From contig DATMML010000007.1 in the NCBI GenBank assembly GCA_035570235.1, positions 1-34,682 of the forward strand: DNA of 34,682 nucleotides, in the 5' to 3' direction. This DNA is from Vicinamibacteria bacterium (GTDB lineage Bacteria > Acidobacteriota > Vicinamibacteria > Fen-336). Every line of letters begins with the position of its first letter. Position 1 is the stretch's first letter. Below, piece after piece: positions 179 to 34,682 of the stretch. A program made the position numbers and the translations under genes. The notes under the pieces are model-generated. The model was given only the letters and a program-made list of their open reading frames with translations. It searched no databases and had not been told where the DNA came from.

Positions 179-226
179 TGGTGGCCTGGGACGGATTTGA
201 ACCGCCGACACGCGGATTTTCAGTCC
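179..226 (-). repeat. Distal partial tRNA-Phe 3' end (att-like copy 1)
   Basis: These 48 bases match the 3' part of the complete tRNA-Phe at 3976-4023 with one mismatch (gatttg here, gaattg in the tRNA). The match runs from the CCA end through the T arm to the anticodon arm and then stops abruptly. The 5' half of a tRNA is absent, so this is not a functional tRNA. A fragment limited to the 3' half of a tRNA is what a tyrosine-integrase attachment site leaves behind. The mismatch suggests it is the oldest of the copies. Confidence 0.85.
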
Positions 227-1703: not shown

Positions 1704-1749
1704 TGGTGGCCTGGGACGGAATTGAACCGCCGACACGCGGATTTTCAGT
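1704..1749 (-). repeat. Middle partial tRNA-Phe 3' end (att-like copy 2)
   Basis: Forty-six bases are identical to 3976-4021 of the complete tRNA-Phe gene, from the CCA end to the anticodon arm. Both sides then diverge. Perfect identity indicates a younger or better conserved junction than the copy at 179-226. It separates the nucleotidyltransferase cassette from the membrane-protein/integrase/HEPN cassette. Confidence 0.9.
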
Positions 1750-3975: not shown

Positions 3976-4051
<76 letters not shown>

Positions 4052-29193: not shown

Positions 29194-30789
29194 CTATCGG
29201 AGTTCGACGCGCAGGAGCACGTTGCCCCGCACGCCCTCGGCCAAGAGATGGGTGGCCAGGGAGGGGATCCCCTCGAGTTGCCGCCGCTCGGCCGGTCCCG
29301 CCAGCACCAGGACCGGCCCCCCGGCGGCGGCCTCCATCACCTCCTTAAGCCCGCCCACTTCCCGTACCTTGCCGTCGTTATAGAAGTACCCCGCCATCCA
29401 GGCCGTGCGCCAGGCGCCCCAGGCCAGAACCTCCCGGCCCATCGCGGGGAGGAGGAGTTTGCGACCGGACTCCTGCCGCGCAAGAACGGGCGGGGCGGCC
29501 AGGGCCAAGAGCAGGAGCAGGCCCGCGCCCCCCACCCGCAGGAGGCGAAGGGCCCCGACCGGGTCACGGCCAAGGCGACGCGCGGCGCCGAAGGAGACGA
29601 TCAGGGCCCACAGTCCGCAAGGGAGGGCCAGCGCCCAGTCGGGGTCCCGGATCCTCAAAAGCCACGCGGGCGTGGCCGCGAAGAGGGCGCCGAGAAGGAC
29701 CCCCAGCATGCCTGCCGCCCGCGGCGTCCCCCAGGAGCGGTCGGCGGCTGTACTGCCCTCCAGCCACTGGGCCGCTGCCCGGCCCATGAGCAGGGCCAGC
29801 GGGCAAAGGCAGGGCAGGATGTAACCGGGGAGCTTGGCGCCCGCGAGGGAGAAGAAGACCAAGGGCAACAGGAGCCAAAGGAGGAGAAAGAGGTCGGCCT
29901 TCGATCGCCGGGGGTGCAGGCCCGCGAGGCCGGGGAGGACAAGGCCTGACCAGGGGAAAAGACCCGCCACAACCACCGGGATGTAGTAGAGGAGGGGCCC
30001 GGGGTGATGGTGAACCGTGGAGGTGAACCGCTCGAGGTTCTGGTTCAGTAGGAACACCTCGAGGAAGCTCCGACCCTGGGCGAGTGTTACGAGCACGTAC
30101 CAAGGCGCGGCTACGAGAAGGAAGATCGCGACCGCCACGGGCGAGAGCACCTCTCGCCAGAGGCTCCGATCGCGCGCGGCCAGGAGATAGCCGGCGACGA
30201 CAAGTCCGGGTAGGAGCACTCCGAGCGGACCCTTAGCCAGAGTGGCCAAGCCCATGAACGCGAAGGCGGTGGGGATGGCAAGCCTTCCCGCGATCCCGAG
30301 CACGCGCAGGCCAGCAAGCCCGGTGGCCACCGTCACCGTAGCCGCGAGCAGCATGTCCATGGCCGCGGCCCGCGAGTATGCGAAGGGCAGGAGAGAAGTA
30401 GCGAGGACGAAGCCCGCGCAGAGACCGGCCCTGCTTCCGTAGAGCCGCGCGCCAAAGAGCGCGGTCGCGCACGTGAAGAGGAGGCCGCTCGCCACCGAGG
30501 GCAGCCGGGCCGCCGTCTCCGTCTCGCCAAAGAGCGAGAAGGCCGCTCCCGCCAACCAATAGTAGAGGGCTGGCTTCTCGAGCCAGGGTCGGCCCTGGAG
30601 CGTCGGCGTGACGTGGTCTCCCGAGCGGTGCATCTCGACGGCCACACGCGCGTAGCGGGGCTCATCCGGGCCCAGGAGGGGCACCGCGCCCAGACGGAAG
30701 AGGAGGAGGGCCGCGCTCAAGGCCAAGAGCACCGCCATCGCACGGGGCGACAGGGCGCCCACGGCGGGCTGCAGAGGGTTTGGAGGCAT
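29194..30789 (-). CDS. ArnT-like GT39/PMT family glycosyltransferase
   Basis: A 531-residue polytopic membrane enzyme of the PMT/ArnT superfamily, which moves a sugar from a polyprenyl-phosphate donor to lipid A, protein or another acceptor on the outer face of the membrane. The catalytic acidic pair D42-E43 lies in LLGPDEPRYA at the first outer loop, and RPWLEKPALYYWL (67-79) matches the family. About 12 spans follow, and the last ~100 residues are soluble. The sugar and acceptor cannot be told. The gene is divergent from the inositol monophosphatase gene. Confidence 0.88.
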   Translation of the reverse strand: MPPNPLQPAVGALSPRAMAVLLALSAALLLFRLGAVPLLGPDEPRYARVAVEMHRSGDHVTPTLQGRPWLEKPALYYWLAGAAFSLFGETETAARLPSVASGLLFTCATALFGARLYGSRAGLCAGFVLATSLLPFAYSRAAAMDMLLAATVTVATGLAGLRVLGIAGRLAIPTAFAFMGLATLAKGPLGVLLPGLVVAGYLLAARDRSLWREVLSPVAVAIFLLVAAPWYVLVTLAQGRSFLEVFLLNQNLERFTSTVHHHPGPLLYYIPVVVAGLFPWSGLVLPGLAGLHPRRSKADLFLLLWLLLPLVFFSLAGAKLPGYILPCLCPLALLMGRAAAQWLEGSTAADRSWGTPRAAGMLGVLLGALFAATPAWLLRIRDPDWALALPCGLWALIVSFGAARRLGRDPVGALRLLRVGGAGLLLLLALAAPPVLARQESGRKLLLPAMGREVLAWGAWRTAWMAGYFYNDGKVREVGGLKEVMEAAAGGPVLVLAGPAERRQLEGIPSLATHLLAEGVRGNVLLRVELR

Positions 30790-30808
30790 GCCCGCGCCAT
30801 CCTACAAT
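30780..30808 (+). promoter_or_regulatory. Promoter of the inositol monophosphatase gene
   Basis: TTGGAG (30780-30785), a 17-base spacer and TACAAT (30803-30808) lie 22 bases before the GTG start. The ribosome site AGGGGGAG (30818-30825) is inside the leader. The -35 box overlaps the start region of the divergent glycosyltransferase. Confidence 0.65.
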
Positions 30809-30830
30809 CGGCTCTCCAGGGGGAGCAAAC

Positions 30831-31631
30831 GTGAGCTGGCAGTATCTGGCGGTGGCGACGGAAGCGGTCTTGCGGGCAGGCGCGATCCAGAAGGAGAGCT
30901 ACGGCCGGGATATCCGCATCGACTACAAGGGCGAGATCGATCTCGTGACGGAGGTGGACCGGGCGTGCGAAACGGCGATCCTCGACACCTTGCGGTCGCG
31001 CTTCCCCGACCATGACTTCGTGACCGAGGAGACCCTCCTCGCCCGCAGCGGTTCCCGCTACCTCTGGTTCACCGACCCCCTCGACGGCACCACCAACTTC
31101 GCCCACGGCTATCCCTTCTTCTGCTCCTCGGTGGCCCTGACCGTAGACGGGCGGGTGGTCGCGGGTGCGGTCTACGACCCGCTGAGGGAAGAGCTGTTTA
31201 CGGCGGAACGCGGCGCCGGTGCCCACCTGAACGGGCGGCGCCTGCGCGTCTCCCACTCCTCGGACCTGCTGCGCAGCCTGCTCATAACCGGGTTCCCCTA
31301 CGACCTACGCGAGGACCTCACGGGCAAGCTGCGGCTCTTCAATCGCTTCATGGGCGAGGCCCGCGCCATCCGCCGCGATGGCGCAGCTGCCCTTGATCTC
31401 TCCTACGTGGCCGCGGGCCGCGCGGACGGCTTCTGGGAGGAGCGCCTGCAGCCCTGGGACATGATGGCGGGGGTGGTCTTGATCGAGGAGGCGGGAGGAC
31501 GCGTCTCGCGCTTCGATGGATCGCCCCTGGGGCTCGGGCCCGACGAGGTCCTGGCCACCAACGGCGCCCTCCACCAAGTCATGCTCGACGTACTCCGCGA
31601 GGAGAGTACGGAGAGGGCTTCGCTGGTGTAG
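30831..31631 (+). CDS. Inositol monophosphatase family protein
   Basis: A 266-residue Mg-dependent phosphatase. Metal ligands are present: E66/E67 (FVTEET), D82, D85, G86 and T87 in DPLDGTTNF, and D210 in QPWDMMAGVVLIEEAGG. Family members hydrolyse inositol-1-phosphate or related sugar phosphates and some act as SuhB-type regulators. GTG 30831 is supported by a good ribosome site and promoter. Its last ten bases (codons CTG GTG TAG) are also the first ten bases of the tRNA at 31622, so processing of the tRNA would cut this mRNA. The ending may have been altered when the tRNA arrived. Confidence 0.93.
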   Translation: MSWQYLAVATEAVLRAGAIQKESYGRDIRIDYKGEIDLVTEVDRACETAILDTLRSRFPDHDFVTEETLLARSGSRYLWFTDPLDGTTNFAHGYPFFCSSVALTVDGRVVAGAVYDPLREELFTAERGAGAHLNGRRLRVSHSSDLLRSLLITGFPYDLREDLTGKLRLFNRFMGEARAIRRDGAAALDLSYVAAGRADGFWEERLQPWDMMAGVVLIEEAGGRVSRFDGSPLGLGPDEVLATNGALHQVMLDVLREESTERASLV

Positions 31632-31698
31632 CCCAATTGGCAGAGGCAGCCGACTTAAAATCGGCACAGTCTGGGTTCGAATCCCAGCACCAGCACCA
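31622..31698 (+). tRNA. tRNA with UAA (Leu) anticodon and short variable arm
   Basis: A complete 77-base cloverleaf: acceptor GCTGGTG/CACCAGC (7 bp), T arm CTGGG/CCCAG with loop TTCGAAT, anticodon stem GCCGA/TCGGC with loop CTTAAAA (anticodon TAA at 31656-31658), discriminator A and encoded CCA. The D arm is slightly unusual (GCC/GGC stem, 11-base loop). The variable region is only five bases (ACAGT), whereas standard bacterial tRNA-Leu is class II with a long variable arm. It overlaps the inositol monophosphatase gene by 10 bases. An internal candidate promoter CTCGAC (31584-31589), 17 bases, TACGGA (31607-31612) is present. The cloverleaf is certain; the amino acid charged is not. Confidence 0.88.
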
Positions 31699-31720
31699 AC
31701 TTCAATTGGTTACAGCTAGC

Positions 31721-31757
31721 CCCGAGAGCCTCTAAAGAGGCCCTCAGACGTCTCGGG
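31721..31757 (+). terminator. Nested stem-loop after the tRNA
   Basis: CCCGAGA (31721-31727) pairs with TCTCGGG (31751-31757), enclosing a second hairpin GCCTC (31728-31732) / GAGGC (31737-31741). It lies 22 bases after the tRNA and could end the transcript, but there is no T run. Confidence 0.4.
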
Positions 31758-32039
31758 ATCGCACCGGGATAGCAAGCACCCGCTTGTGACTGGATGTTCT
31801 GTTCCAGGATGTTTTGCGACGTGCCAGGGTGTTCCAGATCGCTGAGCCCGGACTCTCTGCCTTCGCTTGGTCCGAGGAGGATGTGCACTCCAAGCGGCGG
31901 CGCACCGCCTTGATCATTCGCAGCTCCTCTCCACAAGGAGAGAGTTGACACGTCTCCCACTCTGGGCACTATCGCCGGTCCAAGTGACTAGGATGTTGGT
32001 GCAGCGCAACTCTGAAGCCAATTGGGTCCTGGGCGCAAA

Positions 32040-32111
32040 CGCCGAGAGTTGGACCCAGCGGGCAACTCTGGAGCCGAAGGTCATAGGTCCAAGCCCTATC
32101 GGGCGTACCAA
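32040..32111 (+). pseudogene. Decayed tRNA-like sequence
   Basis: The 3' part reads like a tRNA: T-arm ATAGG/CCTAT with a 7-base loop, then CGGGCGT, A and CCA. A matching 5' acceptor is only partly preserved (ACGCC), and the D-arm region seems shortened by about five bases. The anticodon-arm region CTCTGGA would be CTG (Gln). The T-loop TCCAAGC departs from the normal TTCRA. I read it as a tRNA remnant, probably left at an integration junction. Confidence 0.45.
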
Positions 32112-32192
32112 ATCTCACAACACCTTACAAAGGTACCCCTATGGAAAGGGCGTGCGTGGTACCGTTGTGGTACCAGTCGTGCAAGCTCTGCC

Positions 32193-33110
32193 CTAGATCT
32201 CACGACCAGCAACGCCAGCCCGCTTGAGCTTGATTACGTGCCGCAACGGGGACTCACCGAACATGCGCAAGTATTCTCGGCTGAACTGTGAGGCGCTAGT
32301 GTACCCGACCCGGAAAGACGATTGCTCGGCAGTCTCGCCATGATCGACCATCAGACGTTGTGCTTCCAGCAGGCGAAGTCGTTTCTGATATTGGATCGGG
32401 CTTAGGGAGGTCACGGCCTTGAAGTGTTTGAAGAATGCAGAGCGACTCATGCGGGCCGCCTTCGCCAACGCCGCAACATCCACATCATCGCCAAGGTCGG
32501 ATCTGATCTCAAAGACGGCTCGAGAGATCCTGTGCGTTACGGTCCCTGAACGAGCGAACTGTCGGATGGCGGGGCCTTCGGGCCCCTTCAACAGGTGGTA
32601 GAGGAGTTCCTTCACCACTAGCGGCCCCAGTGCTTGCGCATCCTCGCTCTGTAAGAGCGTCGCCAAGCGGACGGCCGCGTCCAGCATCTCCGCGCTCGCG
32701 GTTCCGCGAAAGAACCCTCGTGCTGGTGTGGCGAAGTCTTGCCGTGCGACAGCCTCGAAGAGAGCCGCCGCTTCGTTCAGGAGGCGCGGTTCAAGATCGA
32801 TCAGGATCGCGAGAAAAGGACTGTCGGGGGCAGCAGCCGCGATTCTGCTGATCACGGGCAAATGGATCGGGGCGGCCGTGAACTGGCCAGCATCGGCAAC
32901 AAACGTATCAGAGCCCACCACGACTTCTTTGCATCCCTGGGCGACGATCGCCAAGCACGCTCGCCACTGCCTCTTGGTCGGCCGGTCTCTCTTGGAATAC
33001 CGGATACAATGGACGCCCGGACTCGGAGCGTGGTGGAGCCCATCAACGGCCGCGAAGCGATGAAGCAGCCGCGCGAGGTCGGAGCAGCGCTGCCTGTTCT
33101 CCTGATCCAT
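32193..33110 (-). CDS. AraC-family transcriptional regulator
   Basis: A 305-residue regulator. Residues ~25-190 are an AraC_N-type cupin-like sensor domain (VVVGSDTFVADAGQF, ITHLPVISRI-like stretch). Residues ~205-300 carry two HTH motifs: VDVAALAKAARMSRSAFFKH and SFRVGYTSASQFSREYLRMFGESP. It is the last gene of a minus-strand run with an SDR and an epimerase-like gene and may regulate them. Base composition is less GC-rich than the core. Confidence 0.9.
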   Translation of the reverse strand: MDQENRQRCSDLARLLHRFAAVDGLHHAPSPGVHCIRYSKRDRPTKRQWRACLAIVAQGCKEVVVGSDTFVADAGQFTAAPIHLPVISRIAAAAPDSPFLAILIDLEPRLLNEAAALFEAVARQDFATPARGFFRGTASAEMLDAAVRLATLLQSEDAQALGPLVVKELLYHLLKGPEGPAIRQFARSGTVTHRISRAVFEIRSDLGDDVDVAALAKAARMSRSAFFKHFKAVTSLSPIQYQKRLRLLEAQRLMVDHGETAEQSSFRVGYTSASQFSREYLRMFGESPLRHVIKLKRAGVAGREI

Positions 33111-33176
33111 GTCTCTTGGCCATCTCGAGACGAGGGAATTTCGGCGTAGCGGCGGGCCGTCGGGAGACCGCTCAGG

Positions 33177-33956
33177 TCATGGCCGAGACGCAGCGAGGCG
33201 ATCCGCCGCCGCAGCATTGTATTGCTGAAAGAACGCCTCGTATGCAGCCTGCCCGCGCTCGGCCGCGAAACGATGGGGGTGCACCCTCTTGACCAGCACC
33301 TCGGCGACGGAAGGAGCGCCCTTCAGGATCGCCAGCGCTTCGTCGACGAACTCCTGCAGCGGCATAGCATTAGGGTCGGTCGCTTGAGCGGGGCCGCCGA
33401 GTTCCGTTTGAACGTACGGGGGCACGATCTCGATCACCCGCACGGAAGTGTCCCTGACTTGAAAGCGCAGGCTCTGCGAATAGGAGTGCAGGGCGGCCTT
33501 CGTAGCGCTATAGGTGGGATAGAGGGCTGCAGGCACGAACGCGAGTCCCGACGTGATGATGAGGACGGCGGCCGTGGGCTGCTTCAGAAGGTGCGGCAGA
33601 AGCGCCTCTGTCAACCGCATCGGGCCTAGTAGGTTCGTTGCCACAGTTTCGTCTCGGACCTGGGCGTTACCGCCCCCCACCAAGTCCTCGCGCTGGCAGA
33701 AGGCGGCATTGTGGACGACCACATTGGTGCTCGGGTACTGTTCGCCGACGGCGCTTGCGAGCGACCGGATGCTCTCGGCATCGGATACATCAGCCTTGAT
33801 GATCTGAAGTCCCCTGTCCTGGGCCGCCTGAAGCTTGTCGAGCGAGCGCGCGGCGATGATCACTTCGTTATCGCGCTCGACCAAAGCTTCTGCGAGCGTC
33901 AGCCCGATGCCGGAGCCGCCGCCGGTGATGAGAAACGTGTTCCGCGTCAGCTTCAT
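33177..33956 (-). CDS. Short-chain dehydrogenase/reductase (DltE-like)
   Basis: A 259-residue classical SDR. The cofactor loop is TGGGSGIG (11-18), the NAG-type motif is HNAA (82-85) and the catalytic triad is S136 (ITSGLAF), Y149 and K153 (YSATK). R37 after the second strand (AARS) suggests NADP. The ATG follows aaaggag with a good gap. The substrate is unknown. It lies 18 bases after the epimerase-like gene and 66 before the AraC gene. Confidence 0.92.
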   Translation of the reverse strand: MKLTRNTFLITGGGSGIGLTLAEALVERDNEVIIAARSLDKLQAAQDRGLQIIKADVSDAESIRSLASAVGEQYPSTNVVVHNAAFCQREDLVGGGNAQVRDETVATNLLGPMRLTEALLPHLLKQPTAAVLIITSGLAFVPAALYPTYSATKAALHSYSQSLRFQVRDTSVRVIEIVPPYVQTELGGPAQATDPNAMPLQEFVDEALAILKGAPSVAEVLVKRVHPHRFAAERGQAAYEAFFQQYNAAAADRLAASRP

Positions 33957-33974
33957 ACTCGTCTCCTTTCAGTG

Positions 33975-34682
33975 TCACACCGTGAAGTACGTGGCGCGGT
34001 CGATGTCGGCAATCAGTCCCGGCTGATGCGTGCGCCATCCCAAGAGCTCTTGCGTCATGGTGCTGGAGGCGGGAACGTCCATGGCGGCAAAGTGAGCGAA
34101 CCAGCCAAAGTGGGCTGCAGCCTCATCAGGGCGCGTGCTCACGACTGGTACCTCCAGGCGCCGCCCGATGACTTCGGCGATTCGCCGGAACGGCACACCC
34201 TCCTCGGCGACGCCGTGGTAGTAGGTGCGGGGGGCGCCCTTTTCCAATACAAGGCGGAACAGGTGGGCCGCATCCAACCGATGCACCGCCGGCCAGCGGT
34301 TGCTCCCTTCGCCGATGTACGCGGAAGCGCCCTTTTCGCGCGCCGTCTTGCTCAAGATGGGGACGAAGCCGTGGTCGCCATCGCCGTGGACCGACGGCGG
34401 CAGGCGAACGACGGACACGCGAACCCCGCGATCCGCAACGGAACGCGCTGCTTCTTCAGAAGCGACGCGCGGCATGTTGTTCGACGCCGAGGGCGTGCTC
34501 TCTTCTGTGGCGAGCCGCCCCTGCGGGAGTAGGCCGACGCCGGACGTGATGACGAGCGGTCTCTGCGAGCCAACCAGGGCCGCGCCCAACGCTTCGATGG
34601 CATGGCGATCGATCTCGCAGCTCGCCGCGAACCGTGAGAAGTCATGGACGAACCCGAGGTGGATGACACCGTCGGCCGCAGC
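33975..34682 (-). CDS. NAD(P)-dependent epimerase/reductase-like extended SDR (partial)
   Basis: An extended-SDR protein; the frame stays open to the right edge of the window, so the N-terminal Rossmann start (GxxGxxG) is missing. The visible part begins AAADGVIHLGFVHDF and includes LVITSGVGLL, VVRLPPSVHGDGDHGFVP, YIGEGSNRWPAVHRLDAAHL and a C-terminus ending RATYFTV. The phrases match the NAD-dependent epimerase/dehydratase-type oxidoreductases. At least 235 residues are present of a usual ~285. First known gene of the minus-strand run toward the AraC regulator. Confidence 0.88.
   Translation of the reverse strand, partial: AAADGVIHLGFVHDFSRFAASCEIDRHAIEALGAALVGSQRPLVITSGVGLLPQGRLATEESTPSASNNMPRVASEEAARSVADRGVRVSVVRLPPSVHGDGDHGFVPILSKTAREKGASAYIGEGSNRWPAVHRLDAAHLFRLVLEKGAPRTYYHGVAEEGVPFRRIAEVIGRRLEVPVVSTRPDEAAAHFGWFAHFAAMDVPASSTMTQELLGWRTHQPGLIADIDRATYFTV

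Follow-up and report, generated by a model that had tools for sequence, protein, structure and literature searches.

A predicted functional leucine tRNA with a short variable loop, apparently the sole reader of UUA codons in an acidobacterial genome

The window (the whole stretch of 34,682 nucleotides analysed here, which is one entire contig, G000:C7, of a 5.7 Mb assembly that is 99.6% complete) carries a gene for a tRNA-Leu(UAA) with a variable loop of only five bases. We consider it very likely that this is a working class I tRNA-Leu charged by LeuRS, that it is the only UUA reader to be found in the genome, and that it belongs to a family common to phages and chromosomes; its prediction as a functional short-armed leucine tRNA, made by sequence comparison, is well supported. 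To our knowledge, textbooks give every bacterial leucine tRNA a long side arm. If our reading is true, this rule would not hold for the tRNA-Leu of many bacteria and phages, and the family would offer a natural experiment in leucine identity without the arm and might supply compact leucine tRNAs.

Structure and leucine identity elements

The gene, present as one copy in the assembly, was called tRNA-Leu(taa) by ARAGORN and matched the Rfam tRNA model at the same position with 63.7 bits (E 9.4e-12; gathering score 29). The original prediction of a complete 77-base cloverleaf with an encoded CCA, a TAA anticodon and a five-base variable region was confirmed by both programs and by the sequence, in which the retention of A73 and the absence of the long arm that it had pointed out are also seen (Table 1). 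The acceptor stem is GCUGGUG/CACCAGC, the D-arm GCCC-AAUUGGCAG-AGGC, the anticodon loop CUUAAAA and the T-arm CUGGG-UUCGAAU-CCCAG, with every stem paired except for the D-stem step C13-A22. The full cloverleaf, conserved T-loop, CCA and a score above the Rfam threshold are the features of a functional elongator tRNA, and the five bases of ACAGU fall short of the long variable arm (about ten or more bases) of a class II tRNA. The folding energy of the gene is 3.6 sd below that of shuffled sequences, with an MFE fold that is not itself the cloverleaf, and no sigma-70-like promoter was found upstream.

Table 1. Positions of the short-armed tRNA, its parts and neighbouring features in the window
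Feature	Position	Strand	Basis and remarks
Class I tRNA-Leu(UAA) gene, 77 nt, CCA encoded	31622..31698	+	ARAGORN, Rfam RF00005; single copy
D-loop AATTGGCAG (A14, A15, G18, G19, C20, A20a, G20b)	31635..31643	+	Own-genome tRNA table
Anticodon TAA	31656..31658	+	Loop CTTAAAA 31654-31660; ARAGORN, sequence
Variable loop ACAGT, five bases, no long arm	31666..31670	+	Last base U48 pairs with A15
Discriminator A73	31695..31695	+	Sequence, own-genome tRNA table
Inositol monophosphatase family gene (suhB-like)	30780..31631	+	ORF list; PF00459 E 1.3e-66; start codon uncertain
Lower-GC segment to contig end, possible island at the tRNA	31699..34682		GC profile, Pfam, tRNA-Arg fragment
tRNA-Arg(CCG) 3' fragment, nt 37-77, 93% identical	32070..32110	+	372 bases behind the leucine tRNA

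A 2023 review of tRNA identity (PMC9976931) lists A73, A15-U48, G18G19 and A20a as required for leucylation in E. coli, where the long variable arm is uncorrelated with leucylation and variants without it stay active, and U8-A14 as important for the Aquifex LeuRS. The table of the genome's own tRNAs gives the window tRNA A73, A14, A15-U48, G18G19 and A20a (under rules measured mainly in E. coli and not in the window lineage), and its D-loop is identical to those of the class II tRNA-Leu(CAG) and tRNA-Leu(GAG) of the same genome. The one LeuRS in this genome is of bacterial type, and would be expected to charge the tRNA via A73, A14, A15-U48 and G18G19/A20a, none of which lies within the missing arm.

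As far as sequence comparison can speak for charging, the strongest evidence for a leucine identity comes from viral contigs searched with a 20-base D-arm pattern which is blind to the anticodon and the variable region. This matched at least 123 sites, 111 of which were called as tRNAs, and among the matches listed 110 of these 111 had leucine anticodons (UAA 49, CAA 31, UAG 22, GAG 4, CAG 3 and AAG 1) and all were class I; a control D-arm pattern recovered 12 isotypes among 114 tRNAs. Several of the 12 uncalled sites among the matches listed were 5' halves breaking off near the anticodon loop. When 169 distinct bacterial and viral sequences were compared, A73 was present in every one and U48 faced A15 in 166, and the acceptor, anticodon and T stems were held by compensatory changes. 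It should be noted that the search patterns fixed the D-arm, whose invariance, A14 and A15 included, follows from the search design and is not counted here as evidence, and that the bacterial set was also selected for UAA, leaving A73, U48 and the viral anticodons as the only free observations.

Bacterial class II tRNA-Leu(UAA), including Streptomyces bldA, has the anticodon, A73, A14, A15-U48, G18G19, A20a, nine-base D-loop and UUA decoding in common with the window tRNA, but the latter has no long variable arm, a different acceptor stem, and C12-G23 and C13-A22 in the D-stem where class II tRNA-Leu(UAA) has G12-C23 and G13-A22. Animal mitochondrial tRNA-Leu(UUR) is also a leucine tRNA without a long arm and with an identity resting on A73 and A14 (PMC9976931); it is, however, mitochondrial and degenerate, whereas the window tRNA is a bacterial and phage gene with full canonical stems. 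A short-loop tRNA-Leu(TAG) mentioned in passing in a report of a mycobacterial tRNA gene cluster (PMC6582537) resembles it in its leucine anticodon and short variable loop, but supplements a normal class II copy as an extra isoacceptor, has UAG rather than UAA, and was not described as a family.

We note that the window genome has further odd tRNAs. Two adjacent class II tRNAs with UCU and UGA anticodons (L056 214-399, G000:C42:198713-198896) have leucine-like D-arms with A15-U48, and the UGA tRNA also has A73; these are candidates for tRNAs in which anticodon and identity disagree. A class II-like tRNA of 89 bases (L062 124-212, G000:C47) has the alanine anticodon UGC, a tRNA-Tyr-like D-arm and a low Rfam score of 35.3.

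Relatives in bacteria and phages

A UAA-tRNA pattern that left the variable region free in length identified class I UAA tRNAs in the window genome (G000) and in G006, G008 and G012 of the same family, and class II UAA tRNAs in G002, G004, G005 and G011, with the class I copies of G009 and G003 seen by similarity. The class I tRNA is thus conserved, at 83–97% identity, in six family genomes, and no family genome was seen to combine it with a class II UAA gene. The UAA tRNAs in other families of the class are class II, and among 119 genomes sampled across the Acidobacteriota phylum the class I signature was found in the window genome only. The class I tRNA of G003 (L036 1501-1577, G003:C98) has C33 in place of U33 before the UAA, which is unusual for a working elongator. 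Class-level matches of about 75% identity were rejected as ordinary tRNA-Lys, tRNA-Thr and one tRNA-Met, and a Monoglobus plasmid match (H21) was set aside as a threonine-like tRNA with the anticodon loop TTTGTAA.

A 38-base class I pattern matched at least 119 stretches, mostly from Actinomycetota (including Cellulomonas, Demequina, Isoptericola, Arthrobacter, Sinomonas, Microcella and Nakamurella) and also from Rokubacteria. In 20 of the 20 carriers tested (mostly Actinomycetota, with two Rokubacteria) the class I tRNA was the only UAA tRNA found, within those detectable by the pattern used, and the strict class I signature occurred in 14 of 149 genomes sampled across Actinomycetota. The core TAGCCCAAYYGGCAGAGGCAGCCGACTTAAAATCGGC is common, to the base, to the window tRNA and those of Rokubacteria and Actinomycetota.

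Short-armed members are also present in phage isolates of Pseudomonas, Citrobacter, Cronobacter, Erwinia, Enterococcus and Lactobacillus, and of Mycobacterium, Rhodococcus, Streptomyces, Corynebacterium, Myxococcus and cyanobacteria, where they are annotated simply as tRNA-Leu; the exact 38-base pattern had no match in viral contigs, where the D-arm-only pattern did. In phages the family comes with all leucine anticodons, and its UAA form is the sole UAA tRNA found on chromosomes of many Actinomycetota, some Rokubacteria and some Acidobacteriota. Horizontal spread is likely, and phages or integrative elements may have been the carriers. Of the phage or plasmid source suggested in the original prediction, the relationship to phages holds for many phages, and delivery to the window genome by this route is plausible and unproven. 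That the tRNA might fall into a known and widespread class had also been foreseen: the family is widespread, but we found no description of short-armed tRNA-Leu as a family in the full-text literature, from which subscription papers are mostly absent and where an earlier description is possible. A sense codon may in this case depend on a type of tRNA gene circulating in phages, and a phage-type tRNA seems to hold an essential decoding job in a soil bacterium.

Decoding and meaning of UUA codons

We collected and typed all 47 tRNA loci of the window genome, among which were four class II tRNA-Leu genes with CAA, UAG, CAG and GAG anticodons; the class II tRNA-Leu(UAA) whose presence had been asked about at the outset was not among them. 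As a CAA anticodon is unable to read UUA, the short-armed tRNA is the only UUA reader found in the genome, and by wobble it would be expected to read UUG too. The tRNA-Lys(UUU) and tRNA-Ile(GAU) were likewise not found among these loci, and an assembly gap is therefore possible, since this is a MAG in which a class II UAA copy might be unassembled. However, the comparative data make such a gap an unlikely explanation, and the class I tRNA appears to be the organism's sole UUA reader. In sampled open frames the codon has a frequency of about 0.55 per 1000 and is, as had been anticipated for so GC-rich a genome, rare but not absent; the eight genes around the tRNA contain a single UUA, in the AraC gene behind it.

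The meaning of UUA was assessed by aligning UUA codons with homologues. Alignment was possible for 24 UUA codons at the actinobacterial loci, with a weighted leucine fraction of 0.73, and leucine was the majority residue at 16 of the 20 Actinomycetota sites with three or more homologues, several of which are the same orthologous position so that the independent sites number fewer than 20. In the window genome and G008, where UUA was masked before the homologue search, 18 UUA sites gave leucine 0.41, valine 0.22 and serine 0.17, compared to leucine 0.46 for a CUA control (an earlier version with few homologues had 9 sites). This result fits leucine and alone is not decisive.

The class I shape, which is not the bacterial leucine norm, and the weak own-genome codon test, with some valine and serine at UUA, might be taken to mean that the tRNA is charged with another amino acid, as a missense tRNA or one that recodes UUA. 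We think this very improbable, given the leucine anticodons of nearly all the viral D-arm tRNAs among the matches listed, the conservation of A73 and A15-U48, and the alignment of UUA mainly with leucine in Actinomycetota having only this tRNA; the atypical leucine tRNA of the original prediction is thus upheld by the identity elements and viral anticodons, while the other amino acid that it had allowed for is disfavoured by the codon alignments. There is similarly only a very slight chance that the gene is defunct, either a pseudogene or a mobile-element relic that is not expressed, with the true UUA tRNA missing from the assembly. Fragments and split copies of tRNAs are common in the family, and the gene overlaps a coding gene and has no evident promoter of the sigma-70 type upstream, but the stems are intact, the CCA is encoded, the gene has been kept in six family genomes, and it is mutually exclusive with class II UAA. 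The rarity of UUA and its single occurrence nearby, in the AraC gene, would suit a mainly regulatory or mobile-element tRNA which, like bldA, controls rare UUA-containing genes. Such a role had been put forward from the beginning, and we regard it as distinctly unlikely: with no other UUA-reading tRNA found, every UUA codon would apparently need the window tRNA, and a dispensable or purely regulatory function is hard to reconcile with this.

The slot behind the phosphatase gene and traces of mobile elements

The TAG stop codon of the phosphatase gene forms bases 8–10 of the tRNA, and the two genes overlap by 10 bases. The stop codon lies within the tRNA in G006 and G012 as well, and we note that processing of the tRNA from a joint transcript (31622-31631 being shared) would deprive the mRNA of its stop codon. 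Of 14 family members, 10 were found to have a close relative of the phosphatase; directly behind it stands a class II tRNA-Leu(UAA) in G002 and G004 and a class I tRNA in G000, G008 and G009. In G006 and G012 the place is taken by the 5' half of a class I tRNA (nt 1-33), and both genomes have intact copies elsewhere. The occupants of the slot suggest that one form was exchanged for the other in place. The acceptor and D-stem pairs of the class I tRNA differ from those of its class II counterpart there. We infer the direction to be from class II to class I because the sister family and the remainder of the phylum have class II; a phosphatase tree could not date or count the changes.

The shared slot, together with a D-loop that matches the host's own class II leucine tRNAs, could also mean that the resident class II gene of this family lost its arm and became the class I tRNA, in an event separate from the origin of the actinobacterial and phage forms. 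This is unlikely in our view, as the core is the same to the base in Rokubacteria and Actinomycetota, the acceptor and D-stem pairs are unlike those of the class II gene in the same slot, and the window genome is the sole carrier among the genomes sampled across the phylum. Rather than arm loss, we offer a phage origin and an integration-driven takeover as hypotheses. Tentatively, a phage-borne class I tRNA-Leu family with the full set of leucine anticodons may have repeatedly displaced class II tRNA-Leu(UAA), here in place behind the phosphatase, so that a sense codon of several phyla would be read by a phage-type tRNA; the driver might be integration events that strike the anticodon loop and thereby destroy the host gene. 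The displacement of the host class II gene at the same locus would then have been helped by elements of this kind.

A plausible route for the replacement, by analogy, is tRNA-dependent lysogeny, in which a host tRNA is broken at integration and another is supplied (PMC10865867). In that system phages integrate into a tRNA gene without rebuilding it and an intact tRNA of the same kind covers the loss, and the 5' halves of G006 and G012, cut at nt 33 with an intact copy elsewhere, resemble this. Unlike the published case, no integrase or prophage was identified here (none of the proteins examined was an integrase), and the split copies are already class I.

The GC content drops from about 0.70 to 0.60 at the window tRNA, in agreement with the edge of a lower-GC segment noted originally. 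The segment encodes an AraC regulator, an SDR dehydrogenase and, on the minus strand, an epimerase-like ORF (Pfam), and no integrase was seen in it up to the contig end. The tRNA-Arg(CCG) fragment within it probably marks where an integrative element was once attached. Splits of tRNA genes close to the anticodon loop are recurrent in this acidobacterial family, and the 3' fragments and anticodon-split copies together suggest that these tRNA genes are integration sites.

Similar remains were observed elsewhere. At the other end of the contig, two tRNA-Phe(GAA) 3' fragments at 179-226 (-) and 1704-1749 (-), which correspond to nt 29-76 and 31-76 and are 98–100% identical, stand in line behind an intact tRNA-Phe at 3976-4051 (-), a layout to be expected from stacked integrative elements of about 2.2 and 1.5 kb. 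In G009 a 5' part of tRNA-Ala(CGC) (L069 2302-2343, G009:C68; nt 1-42, 100% identical to the window genome's gene) adjoins a leucine-tRNA 3' half. Finally, the 1.5 kb between the broken and intact leucine tRNAs of G012 (L065 12055-13680, G012:C226) encodes an HTH protein and a DUF6036 nucleotidyltransferase that is weakly AbiEii-like, and this pair is possibly a small toxin-antitoxin or defence islet.
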